From contig JANQMJ010000017.1 in assembly GCA_028280115.1 (NCBI GenBank), forward strand, positions 124,001 to 188,000: a DNA stretch of 64,000 nt, in the 5' to 3' direction. This document shows positions 17,226 to 26,727 of the stretch, piece by piece. How positions within the stretch are numbered: the first letter of the stretch is position 1; every line of letters begins with the position of its first letter. Under the pieces are notes generated by a model, which saw nothing but the letters and a program-made list of their open reading frames with translations, made no database searches and was not told where the DNA came from. The position numbers were made by a program, and so were the translations under genes. The DNA comes from Parvularculaceae bacterium. GTDB lineage: Bacteria > Pseudomonadota > Alphaproteobacteria > Caulobacterales > Parvularculaceae.

Positions 17226-18860
17226 TTACGTATGGTGCTCGATGTTCTGTTCGATCAGCGCCCGGTTATAGGCGGCGAGCGCCTTGACCCGCGTGAGATA
17301 GCCGACAATTACATCGCGGTCGGCGGCGTCGACCACGGGAAGGCCTTGCTCCAGCGTTTCGTTCAGCAGCGCCAGCGCTTCGCCGAGGGAATCGCGGGTT
17401 TCAATCCGGGGAGCGTCCTCGGACAGCGGCGCGCCCGGCGGCATCTTCTCCATGACATCGGCGACGCGAATGGTCTTGAGAATGACACCGTGCGGGCCTT
17501 CGGAAAGGTCATAGCCGCGCCGCGACAACTGCCAGTGAAAGAACGACCGGCCGCACAGCCACTGCACCATGAGCGTCGCAATCGCAACGGCGACCATCAG
17601 CGAAATGGTGATGCCGTATTCGCCGGTCATTTCGAACACGATCAGCGTCGTTGAAATCGGCGCGCCGAGGATCGCGCCGCTCACCGCGCCCATGCCGATC
17701 ATGGCGTAATACACGGGGCTCGCCGTCGCGCCGGGCAGCGCTTCGCCGAGGATCGCGCCGAAGGCGGCGCCGACAAAGGCGCCGATGACAATGCCGGGCG
17801 AGAAGACGCCGCCGCCGAACCGGCACGACAGGGTGACCGCCGTTGCAGCGCATTTCATGACCACCAGCACGATCAAAAGAACGATCGTGTATTCGCCCGC
17901 CAGCGCCTTGGTCACCGCTTCATAACCGACGCCGAAGACTTCCGGAAAAAACGCGCCCATCAAGCCGACGATCACGCCGCCGATGGGCGGCAGCAGCAGA
18001 TAGGAAATATTATAGCGCTGGGCGAGTTCGCGCACGCCGGTCGTCAAGTGTTTGGTCGACAACATAAACATTGCCGCAATGAGACCGCAGACAAGGCCCA
18101 GCGCCGCCGCGAGCGGCACGTCGATCGTGGCGACGGCGCCGTAATCGGGCGGCGCGAAGGCGGGAAAGTCGCCAAGGTGAATGCGCGTAATAATCGCGGC
18201 CGCAACGCTTGCTGCGGCGATCGGCCCGAACACCGACAGCGCATAGTTGCCGAGGATGACCTCAAGCGCGAAGAGAACGCCCGCGACCGGCGCGTTGAAA
18301 CTCGCCGAGACCGCCGCCGCCGCGCCGCAGCCAAGCAGCGCCCGGCGCTGTTTGGCGGTAAAACCCATATGCCGGTCGAGCAGGGAAGCGATCGCGGCCC
18401 CGAGATGCACCGCCGGGCCCTCGCGGCCGGCGCTCGCGCCGGACCCGAGCGAGACTGCCGACACCGCTGCTGCGGCGAGGCCCGCGCGCATGGATATCCG
18501 GCTTCCGGCGACGGCGCGCGCCTCGATCACGTCGGCGACCCCCTGTCCGCGGCCGTCCTTGAGCCAGTGAAAGCGGTCGGCGAGATAAAGCATCAGCGCG
18601 ACGACAAGGCCGCCGATAATCGGCGCCGCCCAGGCGCGGCCGAACCCCAGGGCCGCCGCGCCGCTGATGACCATCTCTTCGGTCTCGCCGAACGCAACGG
18701 TCGAGACTGCGTCGATGGCCATGCGAAAGGCGATGACGCCATATGCGGCGGCGACGCCGATGATGACGGCGAACAGCCAGACCCTTAAGACATCGTAACG
18801 CAGCGCATAGCGGTTCATCTTTCGCAGGAAGATCAAAATGCGCGCGACGTTCCGGGTCAT
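17226..18860 (-). CDS. CLC-family chloride channel/transporter with C-terminal CBS region
   Basis: 544 residues, about ten or more hydrophobic helices. Signature segments are GSGASAGREGPAVH (with the gating Glu near residue 147), GCGAAAAVSASFNAPVAGVLFALE, and GGGVFSPGIVIGAFVGAAFG. The usual GSGIP selectivity motif is GSGAS here, a variant common in CBS-linked CLC proteins. The last 100 residues form a CBS-type regulatory domain (RVADVMEKMPPGAP, LPVVDAADRDVIVGYLTR). It could be a Cl-/H+ antiporter or a channel; sequence alone does not decide. It is divergent from the GlnE-like gene. Confidence 0.92.
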   Translation of the reverse strand: MTRNVARILIFLRKMNRYALRYDVLRVWLFAVIIGVAAAYGVIAFRMAIDAVSTVAFGETEEMVISGAAALGFGRAWAAPIIGGLVVALMLYLADRFHWLKDGRGQGVADVIEARAVAGSRISMRAGLAAAAVSAVSLGSGASAGREGPAVHLGAAIASLLDRHMGFTAKQRRALLGCGAAAAVSASFNAPVAGVLFALEVILGNYALSVFGPIAAASVAAAIITRIHLGDFPAFAPPDYGAVATIDVPLAAALGLVCGLIAAMFMLSTKHLTTGVRELAQRYNISYLLLPPIGGVIVGLMGAFFPEVFGVGYEAVTKALAGEYTIVLLIVLVVMKCAATAVTLSCRFGGGVFSPGIVIGAFVGAAFGAILGEALPGATASPVYYAMIGMGAVSGAILGAPISTTLIVFEMTGEYGITISLMVAVAIATLMVQWLCGRSFFHWQLSRRGYDLSEGPHGVILKTIRVADVMEKMPPGAPLSEDAPRIETRDSLGEALALLNETLEQGLPVVDAADRDVIVGYLTRVKALAAYNRALIEQNIEHHT

Positions 18861-18989
18861 GACGATCAGGTGAGCGTTAAGGAAAATCGTTCATATCAGC
18901 ATTTAGCTGCAAGTCTAAATGTCACGACGGGATTAACGGCGCATTCATCCCGCTTTGGCACCATTCACGCTCTTCGTTCGACCTATGAA

Positions 18990-21815
18990 ATGGTGACCAT
19001 CATGGCTGCTTCCGGCGCGCGTTCGCCCCGCGATCAAGGCGACAGAATCGATCCGTCGCGGGCGGCGGCGGCGCTGGCGCGATGGCGCCGCGCGGTCGCC
19101 GAAGCCATGGGCCAGGATCCCGGCGCGCCGCTCGATCAACCGGACCGACGGTTGCTGATGTTGCGGGTCTTCGGCGCGACGCGCCGGCTCGGCGAATTGT
19201 GCATGACCCATCCCGGCGCGGCCGCCGCGGCGCTGATGGAAGGTCCTTCGCCGGTGCTCGCCGAAGCAGCGCGCGATCTTGCCGGCCTGAATGGCGGCGT
19301 TGGCGGGCCCGATGCGGTCCATGCCGCCTTGGCGCCGCTCAAAAACCGCGCCGACATCGCCATCGCCCTGGCCGAACTGGGCGGGCGCTGGAGCGTCGCT
19401 GAAGCGACCGCGGCGCGGGTCGATTTCGCCGAGCGGTTGGCGGATACGGCGCTGCACTGGCTGGTGCGCGCGGCGGTCAAGCGCGGCGAACTTACGGTTG
19501 AAGACGCAGACAATATCATGAAGGGCGTGTTCATGGTCGCCGGCGGCGATTTCGCCCATGAAGATCTTGCGCCCTACGGCCCGCTCGACATCATCATTCT
19601 TTATGACGAAGAGACGTTTTCCGGTCCGGCTGCGCGCGGCGCCGACCGTGTCTTCGTGCGCATCGGCGCGGAGTTTCGCGAAGCCTTCGAAGGCAAGCCT
19701 GGCGATTATCCGCTGTTCGCGCTCAAGACGCCGCTCGGTTCGGGGGTCGGCGGCGCCGGCTACGCCGACGGCGCAGCGCGCGTGCGCAGCGTCGCCGAAG
19801 GGCCTCAGGCGCAGTCTTTAAAAGCCTGGCTCGCCACGGCGCGCATCGTCGCTGGCGACCGGACCGCCGGCGGACAGTTTCTTGAAACGATTGAAAATCT
19901 CGTCTGGGGCGGCGCATCCGGCTTTTCCGAAGAACTGCGCGAAACCCTCGGCAAGGAAAGCGACGATCCGCGCACGGCGTTCCAGCGCATCGCCGCGCTT
20001 TGCCGTCTCGCCATCGGCGGGGTGCGTCCGGTGTTTCGCATCGCGTCCGGGCGGGAGGTGTTTGACACCGCCGCGCGATCGCGCGTCCTGTCGCAGGATG
20101 CGGCGCGCCGCCTGGCGGCCGGCGAAGAGCTCGCTCACATCGTCGTGTCGCGCGCGCAGATGATGAAAGGCTCAACGTCGATCGATATCGTTCGCGAAGA
20201 CGAACAACAGGCGCTGGCGCTGCTGTGCGGATATTCCGCTTACGATGCACTGATCGCCGCGCTCGACGGCGCCCGCATTGACGCGCGCAACACGCTCGAC
20301 GCCATGACCCGCGGTCCGCAACGGGAAATCGAACTTTACAAATCCGGCAGCGAGGAAGACCAGGACGCCGACAAGCTGGAGGATCTTGGATTCGTCAATG
20401 GCGAAAGCCTGTCGGCGGCGGTCGACGAATGGGCGCGCCGCGCCTCCAGCCAGGGCGGCGAGATGCGTTTTTCCGCGCATGCGCCGGGCCTTCTGTCCGC
20501 ATTTGGCGAAACCCAGCGGCCCAATGAGGCTTTCCGTCTGTTCGATGCGCTGGTCGGCAATACCAGCAAGGATGCGGATATCTTCTCGATTGTCGGCGAG
20601 CATGCCTCCCAGCGCGATGCGCTGGTCGATGCGCTGGGCTGTTTTTCCGGCGCGGTCTCGCCGCTCACCGAAAACGAAACCGCCGCCCAGGCGTTTTTCG
20701 AAACGCCCGGCGCGCAAACGCCTCAGAGCGGCGCCGAATGGATCGGGCGCAATCCGCCGCCGCCGGTGAAAAAGGAAACGCCCCTGGCTGCATTTACCGC
20801 CTGGCGGCGCGAAACCATCGCCCGGGTCGCGCTGACCGCCGCAAGCGGCGCCGGCTCGTTCGATGCGGCGGCCGAGGCGCTGGAAGACATTCACCTGCGC
20901 ACGCTTGGCGATATTTTCGATCTCGCGCGGGCGACCGCGCCGGCGGATGAAGGCGCCGCCGGCGATAAGATCGCCTTACATGTCTTTAACGGCGCAGGCG
21001 CGCATCTGCCCGGCGCGGCGACCCATCTCGGCTTTATCGCCGGCGCAAAGCTCGGCGAGGCGGGAGAAGCGTTCGTCAAGCGCTATCTGCAAATGCTCGA
21101 CGAGTTGGGCGAGGGCGTGTTCGCCGTGACCCTGGACGCCTCGCACCGGCCGCAGGGCGTGGCCGGTCCGCTCGCGCCGGATCTTAAAACGTTCAAAATG
21201 TATGTGCAGTCCGAAGCCGTCGCCCATGATCAGATCATGCTCGCGCGCGGGCGCGTCATCGCCGGCGAGAACAAGATCGCCCAAAAGGCGCGCGAGGCGC
21301 TGCGCGGCGCGGTATCGGGCGCACGGCGCGCCGACGTTCTGTTCCGCGATCTCGACCGCGCCCGGGCCCAGCGCATGCGGCGCGAACGGCCTGCGTCCGA
21401 GTGGGACATCGACCGGCTGGAAGGCGGCCGCCTCGACGTCGAGCTGGTCATCAGCACCCTGATTTATCGCCATGCGCCGGCGCATCCCTTCGTGCAGGAA
21501 TTGAGCGTCCATGAGGCGCTTGACGCCATGGCGCGCTCCAGCCTGATCCCGGAGGAGACCGTCAAGGCGCTTCAATCCGCGCGGGCCTTCTGGACCCGGT
21601 TGCAGGTGGTGCGCGCGCTCGCGCAATGGAGCGATCCGGTTCGCGCCCCGGCGCGCCCGCGCTTTAGCCGGCTGATCGCCCGCGCGGCGGGGGTTGAGAA
21701 ATTCGATCAGATCCGTCCGCTGATGCGCGGCTACGGCGACGATGTCTCGCGGCTTTACGCCCAACTCGTGCTCGGCCGGCCGGCGCTCAACGTCGTCACC
21801 CAGGCCGCGGGTTAG
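18990..21815 (+). CDS. GlnE-like glutamine synthetase adenylyltransferase homologue lacking catalytic aspartates
   Basis: About 941 residues, the usual GlnE length. GlnE adds or removes AMP on glutamine synthetase with two nucleotidyltransferase halves. Both halves can be traced: ATARIVAGDRTAGGQFLETI in the first and LDASHRPQGVAGPLAP followed by DQIMLARGRVIAGE in the second. The metal-binding G-S-D-x-D motif is damaged in both. In half one it reads PYGPLDIIILYD, keeping only the second Asp (about residue 200). In half two it reads PGAATHLGFIAG (about 674-685), with no Asp at all. The frame opens at GTG 18870, but the first 40 residues look uncoded; ATG 18990 or 19002 is likelier. It may act as a binding or regulatory protein. 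Confidence 0.8.
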   Translation: MVTIMAASGARSPRDQGDRIDPSRAAAALARWRRAVAEAMGQDPGAPLDQPDRRLLMLRVFGATRRLGELCMTHPGAAAAALMEGPSPVLAEAARDLAGLNGGVGGPDAVHAALAPLKNRADIAIALAELGGRWSVAEATAARVDFAERLADTALHWLVRAAVKRGELTVEDADNIMKGVFMVAGGDFAHEDLAPYGPLDIIILYDEETFSGPAARGADRVFVRIGAEFREAFEGKPGDYPLFALKTPLGSGVGGAGYADGAARVRSVAEGPQAQSLKAWLATARIVAGDRTAGGQFLETIENLVWGGASGFSEELRETLGKESDDPRTAFQRIAALCRLAIGGVRPVFRIASGREVFDTAARSRVLSQDAARRLAAGEELAHIVVSRAQMMKGSTSIDIVREDEQQALALLCGYSAYDALIAALDGARIDARNTLDAMTRGPQREIELYKSGSEEDQDADKLEDLGFVNGESLSAAVDEWARRASSQGGEMRFSAHAPGLLSAFGETQRPNEAFRLFDALVGNTSKDADIFSIVGEHASQRDALVDALGCFSGAVSPLTENETAAQAFFETPGAQTPQSGAEWIGRNPPPPVKKETPLAAFTAWRRETIARVALTAASGAGSFDAAAEALEDIHLRTLGDIFDLARATAPADEGAAGDKIALHVFNGAGAHLPGAATHLGFIAGAKLGEAGEAFVKRYLQMLDELGEGVFAVTLDASHRPQGVAGPLAPDLKTFKMYVQSEAVAHDQIMLARGRVIAGENKIAQKAREALRGAVSGARRADVLFRDLDRARAQRMRRERPASEWDIDRLEGGRLDVELVISTLIYRHAPAHPFVQELSVHEALDAMARSSLIPEETVKALQSARAFWTRLQVVRALAQWSDPVRAPARPRFSRLIARAAGVEKFDQIRPLMRGYGDDVSRLYAQLVLGRPALNVVTQAAG

Positions 21816-22033
21816 TCGCGCGCCTTCAGCCGCTCCAGTGCGTATACCCTAAGCGCCGACGCCAGCCCCGGCGGCGGGCTTTCTTTCAGCCGCGCGCGGT
21901 CGATCTCGCCGATCAGATCGGGCAGGGTGCGCCGATCCTCTCCGGCGAAGCCTTCCAGCGCCGTCCAGAATTCTTCTTCGAGCGATACGCTGGTGCGGTG
22001 GCCTTTGAGCGTGATCGAGCGTTTTTGCATCAT
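21812..22033 (-). CDS. Ribbon-helix-helix domain protein
   Basis: 73 residues. KRSITLKGHRTSVSLEEEFW is the beta strand and first helix of a ribbon-helix-helix domain of the small alphaproteobacterial type, followed by LPDLIGEIDRARL. Such proteins may bind DNA as dimers; targets are unknown. Its stop overlaps the end of the GlnE-like gene by three to four bases, tail to tail. Confidence 0.78.
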   Translation of the reverse strand: MMQKRSITLKGHRTSVSLEEEFWTALEGFAGEDRRTLPDLIGEIDRARLKESPPPGLASALRVYALERLKARD

Positions 22034-22108
22034 GAATGAAACAGGCTCCGCCTCCAGCCGGAGACGAAGCCCGTTCGCTTGGAAAATTCAAGACTGCGCG
22101 GCGAAAGG

Positions 22109-22330
22109 TTAATGTTTCGCCCAGTCGTCGAGGCCATGGCTGCGGATCTTCGAGGTCGCCAGCGTCACGCCGTCGATAATGCCGGCCATATGCGAGACCG
22201 CTTCAGCCTCGGCGCTGGAAAGATCTGCGCCGAGCGCCTTATAGAGCGTCTCGATATCGACATTATGTGCGAACAGAAACTGCGCCAGCAAAAGCCGCAA
22301 CTGGCTGTCGGAAGGTGTGTTATCGGCCAT
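22109..22330 (-). CDS. Small hypothetical protein
   Basis: 73 residues from ATG at 22330, with AAGGA about 13 bases upstream; an in-frame start 25 codons earlier is possible but its residues look uncoded. The protein is acidic and predicted mostly helical (LRLLLAQFLFAHNVDIETLY, then SAEAEAVSHMAGIIDGV). No membrane segment, no motif I recognise. It lies on the same strand as fumC and the ribbon-helix-helix gene, between them. Confidence 0.6.
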   Translation of the reverse strand: MADNTPSDSQLRLLLAQFLFAHNVDIETLYKALGADLSSAEAEAVSHMAGIIDGVTLATSKIRSHGLDDWAKH

Positions 22331-22444
22331 CCTGATCCATCCTTGTTCCGTGTAATCCCAGGCGCGAAAACGCGCTCGGCGGGAGAATAGCAAGAACCGG
22401 TCCATCCCGCCCGACGGACAATGATGGTTAATGCGCCTGCGCGG

Positions 22445-23836
22445 TTAATTCGGCGAAATCATTTTTTCCGGCCGCACGATGCGGTCGTATTCCTCCGCGC
22501 TGACGAAGCCGAGCCGGACGGCTTCCTCGCGCAGGGTTGTGCCGTTTTTGTGCGCCGCCTTGGCAATTTTCGTCGCGTTGTCGTAACCGATCGCCGGCGC
22601 CAGCGCGGTCACCAGCATGAGCGAGCGTTCCATCAGTTCCTTGATGCGGGCCTCATCGGCGGCGATGCCGGCGGCGCATCGGTCGGAAAAGCTGCTTGCC
22701 GCATCGGCGAGCAGCCGGATCGACTGCAAAACGTTAAAGGCGATGACGGGCTTGAACACATTCAGCTCGAAATGGCCCTGGCTGCCGGCGAAGGCGACTG
22801 TCGCATTGTTGCCCATGATTTGGGCGCACACCATGGTCAGCGCCTCGCACTGGGTCGGATTGACCTTGCCCGGCATGATCGACGAGCCCGGCTCGTTTTC
22901 CGGCAGGCTGATTTCGCCGAGACCGGAACGCGGGCCGGAGCCGAGCAGCCTGATGTCGTTGGCGATCTTGAACAGGCTGACGGCGATTTCGTTGAGCGCG
23001 CCATGGGCTTCGACCATGGCGTCATGGGTCGCCAGCGCTTCGAATTTGTTCGGCGCGGTAACGAAAGGCAGTTTGGTGTAGGCGGCGACTTCCTCGGCGA
23101 ATTTTTCCGCAAAGCCCGGCTTTGTATTAAGGCCGGTGCCGACGGCGGTGCCCCCCTGGGCCAGGGCGTAAAGCCGCGGCAAGACGCCTTCGGCGCGCGC
23201 GGCGCCGTTTTCGACCATGGCGACATAGCCGGAAAATTCCTGTCCCAGCGTCAGGGGCGTTGCATCCTGCAGATGGGTGCGGCCGATCTTGATAATGTCT
23301 TTAAACGCTTCGGCCTTGTCGTTGAGGGCGTTGCGAAGTTTCTGTAGCGCCGGCAGCAGGCGATGAACGATTTCCTCCGCCGCGGCGATATGCATCGCGG
23401 TTGGAAACGTATCGTTCGACGACTGGCTGCGATTGACGTGGTCGTTGGGATGAACGGGATCTTTCGATCCGATCTCGCCGCCGAGAATTTCTATGGCGCG
23501 GTTGGCGACGACTTCATTGGCGTTCATGTTCGACTGGGTGCCGGAGCCGGTCTGCCACACCGACAGCGGGAAATGATCGTCGAGCTTGCCTTCGGCGACT
23601 TCACCGGCGGCCTGAATGACGGCTTCGCCGATCTTCGGATCGAGATTGTCCAGCGCCAGATTGGCGCGCGCCGCGCACCGCTTGACGACGCCGAGGGCGC
23701 GGATCAGCGGCGGGGCCATGGTCTCGGTCCCGATCGGAAAGTTGATCAGCGAACGCGCCGACTGGGCGCCGTAATATTTGTCCGCCGGCACGTTAAGCTC
23801 GCCGAAACTGTCGGATTCGGTGCGTGTTTTGGTCAT
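22445..23836 (-). CDS. fumC: Class II fumarate hydratase
   Basis: Interconverts fumarate and malate in the citric acid cycle, as a cytoplasmic tetramer without iron. 463 residues, normal length. Substrate-binding signatures are visible: [50 protein letters not shown], and the family signature [11 protein letters not shown] with its catalytic Ser. The ATG at 23836 fits typical N-termini ([21 protein letters not shown] without the first residue). It is divergent from the next gene, with 158 bases between starts. Confidence 0.97.
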
Positions 23837-25557: not shown

Positions 25558-26058
25558 CTATTTCTTGCGAAAAGCGTCGAGACTGACGACATCGGCGCTC
25601 TCACCCTCTTTTTTCTCGGGCTCGGCGTCGGGTTTTTCGTCCGGCGTTTCCTGTTCCGGCGCCGGTTCGGGCTCGCCTGAAATATTCGCGGCGGATTCGC
25701 TTTCTTCGAACCGCAGTCCGAACTGCACGCTGGGATCGGCGAAGTTGGCGACGGCGTCGTAGGGAATGTTAAGGCGGGCTTCCTTGCCTTTGAACCACAG
25801 CGTGACGGCAAAGCCTTGTTCCGTCACATTCAGGTCCTCGAACTGGTGCTGCAGTACGATGGTCATGCGTTCGGGATAGTCTTCCAGAAGGTGATCGGGA
25901 ATCTGAACGCCGGGCGCCGTGGTCAGGAACTCGATATAGAAATGGTGCTCGCCGGGCGCGTCGCCGAGTTCGGCGACCATGCTGAGCACATTGCGCATGA
26001 TCCCGCGCAACGCCTGCTGCATCAGATAACCGTAATCGAGTTCGACGTCTTCTTTCAC
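25558..26058 (-). CDS. sspB: ClpXP adaptor SspB (alphaproteobacterial type)
   Basis: 166 residues. SspB binds the SsrA tag on unfinished proteins and hands them to the ClpXP protease. The N-terminal domain (YGYLMQQALRGIMRNVL, then HHFYIEFLTTAPGVQIP and VLQHQFEDLNV) is that of the alpha-type adaptor. A charged, proline-rich linker of about 40 residues follows, ending in VVSLDAFRKK, the conserved tail that docks on ClpX. The tmRNA gene that makes the tag lies about 200 bases upstream on the same strand. Confidence 0.93.
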   Translation of the reverse strand: MKEDVELDYGYLMQQALRGIMRNVLSMVAELGDAPGEHHFYIEFLTTAPGVQIPDHLLEDYPERMTIVLQHQFEDLNVTEQGFAVTLWFKGKEARLNIPYDAVANFADPSVQFGLRFEESESAANISGEPEPAPEQETPDEKPDAEPEKKEGESADVVSLDAFRKK

Positions 26059-26254
26059 GCTTGCAGCCCTGGTTCTTGGCAGCCCTGGTTCTTGAAGGAA
26101 GCGTTTTAGCCTTCTTGCGATGAGAACGCTACATGGCGGCTGAAAGCGACAGTTTTCGGTAAAATGAAAACAGCGCCCGCCCCAGCCGGATAATAAGCCT
26201 GTGGAAATCTGAAAAAGAAAATCCCGGCTTCTGTTGCCAGGCGCCGGGGGGCCC

Positions 26255-26588
26255 CGCCTAGCCCTGGAAAGGGGGCTAGGACTTTAAGTGCGAGTCACTC
26301 GCGCTGCTTACGCGGCGAGAGCGAACTCTTCCGAGTAGTTGTCATTGGCAACTATTCAGTTTGGCCAAATAACGGAGGCCAACCGGGCGAAAGCATCGTC
26401 TTTAGACGCTCGTCGATCCTATTTCGGCCCCATTCTGAAGTCTGAAACCGGAAACCGGAAATCTGAGACCAGGTTTCAGAATTCTGGCTTCAGGCTTCAG
26501 ATGGTGGAGCCGCCGGGTACCGCCCCCGGGTCCGATACGCTTATTACACGCGCCATTTATCGCCATAGCCCGCCGAAGCAGGCCCGCC
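26255..26588 (-). ncRNA. ssrA: Circularly permuted two-piece tmRNA (ssrA)
   Basis: On the minus strand the acceptor piece comes first (about 26588 to 26502). It has a T-arm-like GGACCCGGGGGCGG and ends in GGCTCCACCA, with CCA encoded. A 70-base intervening segment (26501-26432) follows; its ends pair (TCTGAAG with CTTCAGA) and it is expected to be removed. The coding piece begins at 26431 with GGGGCCGAAATAGGATCGAC, the normal 5' end of tmRNA, then pseudoknot-like sequence, then the tag frame and a hairpin (CCTAGCCC with GGGCTAGG, 26257-26280). This order is the permuted form known from alphaproteobacteria. tmRNA frees stalled ribosomes. The exact ends are estimates. Confidence 0.93.
26308..26349 (-). 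other. tmRNA proteolysis-tag reading frame
   Basis: Thirteen codons from the resume codon GCC at 26349 to TAA at 26308 encode ANDNYSEEFALAA. With the alanine carried by tmRNA the tag is AANDNYSEEFALAA. The AANDN start matches the SspB contact site of known tags and the LAA end is the ClpX degron. Confidence 0.93.
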
Positions 26589-26727
26589 ATATATAGGCCA
26601 GGCGCGTAAATATTTGAAGACCAAGCGAAATCTTAAAAATCAACCGGCTGTCAACAATCTGTAACAACAATGCATTAAGTGCGCAGCGGCGCGCTCGCTT
26701 GCGTCCATGGAGGCGACCAGGACGGCC

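Follow-up and report, generated by a model that had tools for sequence, protein, structure and literature searches.

A conserved full-length GlnE paralogue with both nucleotidyltransferase sites degraded in Parvularculaceae and two other small orders

The window, by which we mean the whole 64,000-nucleotide stretch of DNA analysed here (positions 124001-188000 of contig C19 in the 2.99 Mb Parvularculaceae genome G000), carries on its forward strand a glnE paralogue that we call glnE2 (19002..21815; 937 aa). The frame is open to a stop at 21815 from GTG 18870 or from ATG 18990 or 19002; we chose ATG 19002 as the last methionine ahead of a conserved WRR, a judgement made from orthologue alignment, and residue numbers of site features follow the 981-aa ORF. 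A first-pass annotation, made from the letters alone, had described an intact frame of about 940 residues that keeps the motifs ARIVAGD, HRPQGVAGPL and GRVIAGE; the frame is indeed intact, with a likely protein of 937 residues, and all of these motifs are present.

On the divergent side lies clc, a ClC-type chloride channel gene (17226..18860, minus strand) that is conserved as a neighbour also in the order of genome G181. The intergenic stretch between clc and glnE2 (18861..19001) is conserved as DNA across the genus, with shared blocks that include TTCATATCAGCATTC, GTCTAAATGTCAC and TTTAACG. Comparison of this gap with Rfam returned no family and a single chance match of 17.6 bits, below the threshold of 35, and an RNA element was rejected on that score; a search of 18700-22500 for a sigma-70-like promoter found none. 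On the convergent side, all on the minus strand, follow a gene for a ribbon-helix-helix protein (RHH_4; 21812..22033), which shares 4 bases with the end of glnE2, and three syntenic neighbours: a gene for a 98-aa protein of unknown family (22109..22405), fumC for a class II fumarase (22445..23836) and sspB (25558..26058). No nitrogen genes adjoin glnE2. A tmRNA gene with the tag ANDNYSEEFALAA lies near sspB in the same locus (26217-26594); as SspB is an adaptor for the tmRNA tag, this neighbourhood may be a trans-translation cluster.

Homology of glnE2 to GlnE is clear from the Pfam GlnE family (PF03710), which matches in two stretches at 55 bits against a cut-off of 24, and GlnD_UR_UTase matches at 25.5 bits against 21. 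The NCBIfam GlnE equivalogs score far under their cut-offs (PRK14108, 178 versus 724 bits; PRK11072, 76.5 versus 487), which places glnE2 outside the score range of functional GlnE enzymes. An AF2 model built from 27 aligned orthologues reached a mean pLDDT of 83 and a pTM of 0.53, so the domains are credible and their placement relative to one another is not. In the model, half one aligns structurally with the adenylyl-removing domain of E. coli (1v4a; Z 33.9, 397 residues, 3.8 A; Foldseek E 4e-11), and half two with the adenylylation domain (3k7d; Z 28.7, 441 residues, 6.2 A; Foldseek E 1e-10). The two tandem nucleotidyltransferase-helical halves of GlnE are thus found in the expected order, and the GlnE fold is predicted to be intact in both halves.

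The catalytic sites tell a different story from the fold. We aligned 34 paralogues with 28 canonical alphaproteobacterial GlnEs and E. coli GlnE, and scored the positions of E. coli D173, D175 and D223 (half one) and D701, D703 and D752 (half two); D223 and D752 were matched by alignment to what we take to be the third carboxylate of the superfamily. All 28 canonical proteins have Asp at all six sites. A complete DxD occurs in neither half of any of the 34 paralogues, in agreement with the earlier claim that the Asp-x-Asp pair is missing from both halves. Where canonical GlnEs read GKxGxxELNYSSDIDL, half one of glnE2 reads GGDFAHEDLAPYGPLDIIILYD; its motif 1, AGGDFAHEDLAPYGPLDI (19539..19592, residues 224-241), has Pro for the first Asp, as do 34/34 paralogues, and the second site is Asp in 20 and Glu in 14. 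The third strand of this half, LFALKTPLGSGVGGAG (19713..19760, residues 282-297), has lost the third carboxylate and has a Gly-rich stretch instead, the site being acidic in 0/34 paralogues and Lys in the window's protein. In half two the canonical SSDIDLM is replaced by PGAATHLGFI, and motif 1, HVFNGAGAHLPGAATHLGFI (20979..21038, residues 704-723), lacks both Asp; the first site is acidic in none of the 34 paralogues and the second is Asp in 3 and Glu in 1, in a pair that is hard to align among Parvularculaceae paralogues. The third strand, VTLDASHRPQGVAGPL (21126..21173, residues 753-768), retains its carboxylate, D756, which the first-pass annotation had not mentioned and which is Asp in 32 of 34. 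Downstream, the half-two helical domain (GlnD_UR_UTase, HEPN-like; PF08335, 25.5 bits; 21360..21608, residues 831-913) keeps a WD...GG..D.E pattern.

At the catalytic pair the window's protein therefore has P-x-D in half one and A-T-H in half two. The metal sites were judged by sequence alignment, with superposition at the level of whole domains; of the six aligned positions, the second of half one and the third of half two are acidic in this protein. The N-terminal (deadenylylation) half thus lacks the set of G-x11-D-x-D plus third Asp, a motif wording that comes from the related SidM domain in excerpts of PMC12409994, and the C-terminal (adenylylation) half keeps only the third Asp of D-x-D plus third Asp. 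The string SD[ILV]D[ILVF] was absent from 47/47 related frames searched. With both two-metal sites incomplete in every member and this string missing, two-metal AMP transfer by the glnE2 protein appears very unlikely, and the alignment leaves loss of catalysis well supported. Paralogues of families f95 and f127, which stand for the two other orders, are intermediate, with P-x-D/E in both halves and the third Asp of half two retained, and their second half may have weak activity. Because the same replacements recur in independent genomes and dN/dS is 0.03-0.15, the changes cannot be put down to chance or sequencing error; the low ratios also bear out the earlier view that glnE2 is under selection as a protein.

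We searched the same genome for a second, canonical glnE, as had been proposed, and found one with both sites intact on the same contig, at about 84.5-86.8 kb of C19 and about 56 kb upstream of glnE2, whose product shares about 20% identity with it. A second, distant GlnE match is present in all 27 other genomes of the genus, and in the 16 of 28 in which the canonical sites were read they are canonical. The window's genome also encodes a single glutamine synthetase, whose adenylylation tyrosine stands in DKDLYDLPPEE, and has two strong PII matches and one weak PII-like match. The notion that glnE2 is the lineage's GlnE, and that nitrogen control must differ here, is therefore set aside: with a canonical GlnE and one glutamine synthetase bearing the modified tyrosine, the circuit is present for glnE2 to act on. 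Catalytic residues lost, predicted fold and purifying selection kept, and an active-type relative alongside together mark glnE2 as a putative pseudoenzyme. An apparent association of carriers with an extra divergent PII (7/8 carriers versus 0/5 non-carriers searched) was dropped because ten sequences and two neighbourhoods (G000 and G004) proved to be different kinds of protein in different contexts. Genome G149, of family f95, has two canonical GlnE copies in addition to the paralogue (L137, L138); a search for its glutamine synthetase catalytic domain found none, which may be a gap in a genome that is 95% complete.

Selection on glnE2 could be compared directly with that on the canonical gene. 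Among 15 genus genomes with both proteins aligned, glnE2 is the more similar in 105/105 genome pairs, with a mean identity of 70.5% against 59.6% for canonical GlnE. dN/dS (NG86) of glnE2 and canonical glnE in five matched pairs was 0.047/0.153, 0.043/0.132, 0.039/0.146, 0.100/0.138 and 0.045/0.104, ratios that are rough where dS exceeds 1, as some do; the set also includes eight pairs with no counterpart to compare, seven of the paralogue and one canonical. The paralogue is under stronger constraint than the canonical GlnE of the same genomes. Of the 184 positions that are near-invariant in canonical GlnE, only 31 are retained by at least 90% of paralogues, distributed by segment from N to C terminus as 3/10, 6/50, 6/45, 4/18, 0/16, 7/34 and 5/11. 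Retention is highest in the final helical domain and poor in the other segments, falling to zero in the stretch ahead of the second nucleotidyltransferase domain, a pattern compatible with a retained docking surface, as a candidate only. Given so few kept positions, and none of 16 in that stretch, conserved contacts with glutamine synthetase or PII can be no more than putative.

We found glnE2 in four genera of Parvularculaceae and in the two other small orders. Within the window's genus it is present in 27/28 genomes, as 24 full-length frames and 3 pieces cut by contig ends; in the single exception (G015), fumC and the gene for the 98-aa protein end at a contig edge, so glnE2 would lie off the contig. 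Other genera of the family have it in 3/8 genomes (g3, g5 and g6). In wider samples it was found in 29/249 genomes of the order, all of the same family; in 7/385 of the class, namely the window's genome and families f95 and f127; and in 1/398 of the phylum, the window's own. Searching the orders of f95 and f127 recovered it in 5/5 and 2/2 genomes. Carriers include isolates and MAGs from several projects, among them the named strains Marinicaulis flavus and Amphiplicatus metriothermophilus. A search of viral contigs yielded no relative, none of five pattern matches being confirmed, and a phage or mobile origin was rejected on this ground. A glnE2 fragment in an Ectothiorhodospiraceae MAG (L093) is joined to an unrelated-looking stretch, likely an assembly join, and was discarded. 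Three genomes of genus g2 (G028, G484 and G508) have neither glnE2 nor canonical GlnE; in G028 the search also found no PII match, and the glutamine synthetase adenylylation context is changed.

In a phylogeny, all 34 full-length paralogues group together (SH-aLRT 100, bootstrap 100), apart from a clade of the 28 canonical alphaproteobacterial GlnEs (94.9/98) in which the canonical copies of f95 and f127 fall; branches are long and E. coli GlnE alone serves as root, which is weak for the exact branching of the paralogue. Alignment and tree were built without the partial paralogues at contig edges (L029, L032 and L034); the partial f95 sequences L100, L101, L102 and L129, together with L093, were left out of the tree and the site count, and from 39 named loci only L082, L086 and L090 were added to the tree, as most of these loci repeat genomes already there. 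Judged from these sequences, glnE2 is a second, ancient GlnE lineage and not a defective GlnE of its own lineage. Carriers share the arrangement clc-glnE2-fumC-sspB: 28 of 37 named loci have clc as the divergent neighbour and 28 of 37 have fumC as the convergent one, several of the misses falling at contig ends. An order apart, f127 members (L142, L143) have clc, glnE2, fumC, sspB, thyA and folA in the same order and orientation, and in G149 (L141) fumC and sspB lie beside glnE2. Ten non-carriers were examined together with G015; in one of another family (G043) about 5 kb, occupied by other genes, still separates clc from fumC, and the remaining nine stretches showed no clc next to fumC. The simplest explanation is vertical inheritance followed by losses, and the locus may also have been transferred as a block.

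One genus offers a view of glnE2 in the absence of the enzyme. Canonical GlnE was searched for and absent in both g3 genomes (G029, 99% complete; G540, 96%), which retain glnE2 (L146, L150). Between the g3 protein and the window's, identity is 38%, compared with 54-60% for those of g5 and g6, whereas clc (64-66% versus 63-72%), fumC (70% versus 68-85%) and secF (67% versus 55-76%) are no more diverged. Root-to-tip lengths of 1.66-1.68 are about twice those of 28 others, none of which exceeds 0.86, and protein change relative to clc is about twice as fast in the g3 pair as in a g6 pair. Frames in the g3 pair are intact (dN 0.43, dS 1.41), the half-two third Asp is lost in exactly these two members, and the glutamine synthetase of G029 retains its tyrosine in a changed context, DQDLYELDNAALRD. 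We read this, as a single evolutionary event, to mean that canonical GlnE is not strictly required for what glnE2 does, since glnE2 survives there without it and cannot be acting on GlnE only, and that constraint drops once GlnE is gone.

Taken together, we favour, at roughly even confidence, a reading in which glnE2 encodes a non-catalytic, GlnE-derived regulator that is probably tied to glutamine synthetase adenylylation through a presumed partner; degraded sites in an intact, selected protein with a non-catalytic binding role, as the first-pass annotation had it, is still the best account. An ancient glnE paralogue would have lost AMP transfer in both halves and been retained as a non-catalytic protein that may still recognise part of the glutamine synthetase, PII and GlnE circuit, most likely via its second half and the helical domain there. 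Whether by competition, by sequestration or as a scaffold, it could then set how far or when canonical GlnE adenylylates glutamine synthetase, and the half-one pocket, rebuilt yet conserved, might hold a ligand or a protein segment. The tie to the circuit is suggested by g3, where the jump in rate and the lost half-two carboxylate coincide with the missing canonical GlnE and the flanking clc and fumC show no unusual divergence. A bolder and rather doubtful version has the Pro-fixed pocket of half one rebuilt as a conserved ligand-sensing or catalytic site, in a nitrogen-control layer that would partly outlive the adenylylating enzyme.

The persistence of glnE2 in g3 can be turned the other way, as can the small number of canonical near-invariant residues kept and the conservation across orders of a locus with fumC, sspB, thyA and folA: the GlnE scaffold might have moved outside nitrogen control and bind another ligand or protein without catalysis, for instance a metabolite or a protein whose gene lies at the fumC/sspB locus. 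We regard this as a serious but clearly less probable alternative, as the acceleration of glnE2 in g3 goes together with the missing canonical GlnE; moreover, glnE2 sits among housekeeping genes and runs opposite to both clc and fumC in transcription, so proximity need not imply a functional tie. It is unlikely that glnE2 still encodes an enzyme, with half one rebuilt around the invariant Pro, an HED, the second Asp/Glu and the Gly-rich strand-three loop to use a different donor, acceptor or chemistry. The half-one motifs do rank with the best-conserved parts of the protein (compared with windows of equal length, motif 1 lies at the 94th percentile over the 34 members and strand three at the 92nd over the 30 Parvularculaceae members), unlike the half-two motif, which is average at the 47th, and excerpts of PMC12409994 describe SelO as a presumed dead fold with another transfer activity; however, the first and third half-one carboxylates are absent in 34/34 members, and HED and the Gly-rich loop are not common to the f95 and f127 members, nor fully to those of g3. 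That the degraded catalytic motifs simply mark a decaying pseudogene or an assembly artefact is scarcely credible in the face of full-length frames in 24 of 28 genus genomes, an exception explained by a contig edge, and occurrence in isolates and MAGs of several projects; for the genus, the selection data already refute a pseudogene.

The textbook example of protein AMPylation is GlnE, which reversibly adenylylates glutamine synthetase, and the vertebrate protein OASL belongs to the same superfamily as the GlnE nucleotidyltransferase domains. The closest known system to glnE2 is GlnE itself (PF03710; PRK14108; E. coli b3053), the bifunctional glutamine synthetase adenylyltransferase and adenylyl-removing enzyme, which glnE2 resembles in length, in its two nucleotidyltransferase and helical halves, in predicted fold and in the third acid and RP-x-G of half two; it differs in lacking a complete DxD, in its score of 178 against 724 bits, in its separate ancient clade and in the loss of the half-one GGIREIEF-type motif. 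Engineered unidirectional adenylyltransferases, single-half GlnEs described in excerpts of PMC9249168, are likewise GlnE derivatives that alter glutamine synthetase adenylylation, and there altered GlnE activity strongly affects glutamine synthetase and ammonia release; those proteins are truncated and active, whereas glnE2 is full length with both sites absent. OASL, with its inactive nucleotidyltransferase domain, is similarly an inactive relative kept as a regulator, assumed in excerpts of PMC4351405 to compete with active relatives and proposed to have a regulatory role, although its pathway and architecture are unrelated and it has one inactive domain, not two. Helical domains of the GlnD/GlnE type are placed in the HEPN superfamily, usually as part of the glutamine synthetase modifying complex, in an excerpt of PMC3710099. 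Searches of open-access full-text literature, a scope outside which most subscription papers and preprints fall, found no description of a natural GlnE with both sites dead. In these bacteria, carriers, non-carriers and one genus in which the enzyme was lost and the paralogue kept form a ready natural comparison. More generally, a full-length GlnE relative with both sites dead, under tighter constraint than the enzyme and predating the orders in which it occurs, would imply an unnoticed non-catalytic part in, or derived from, the glutamine synthetase adenylylation circuit.
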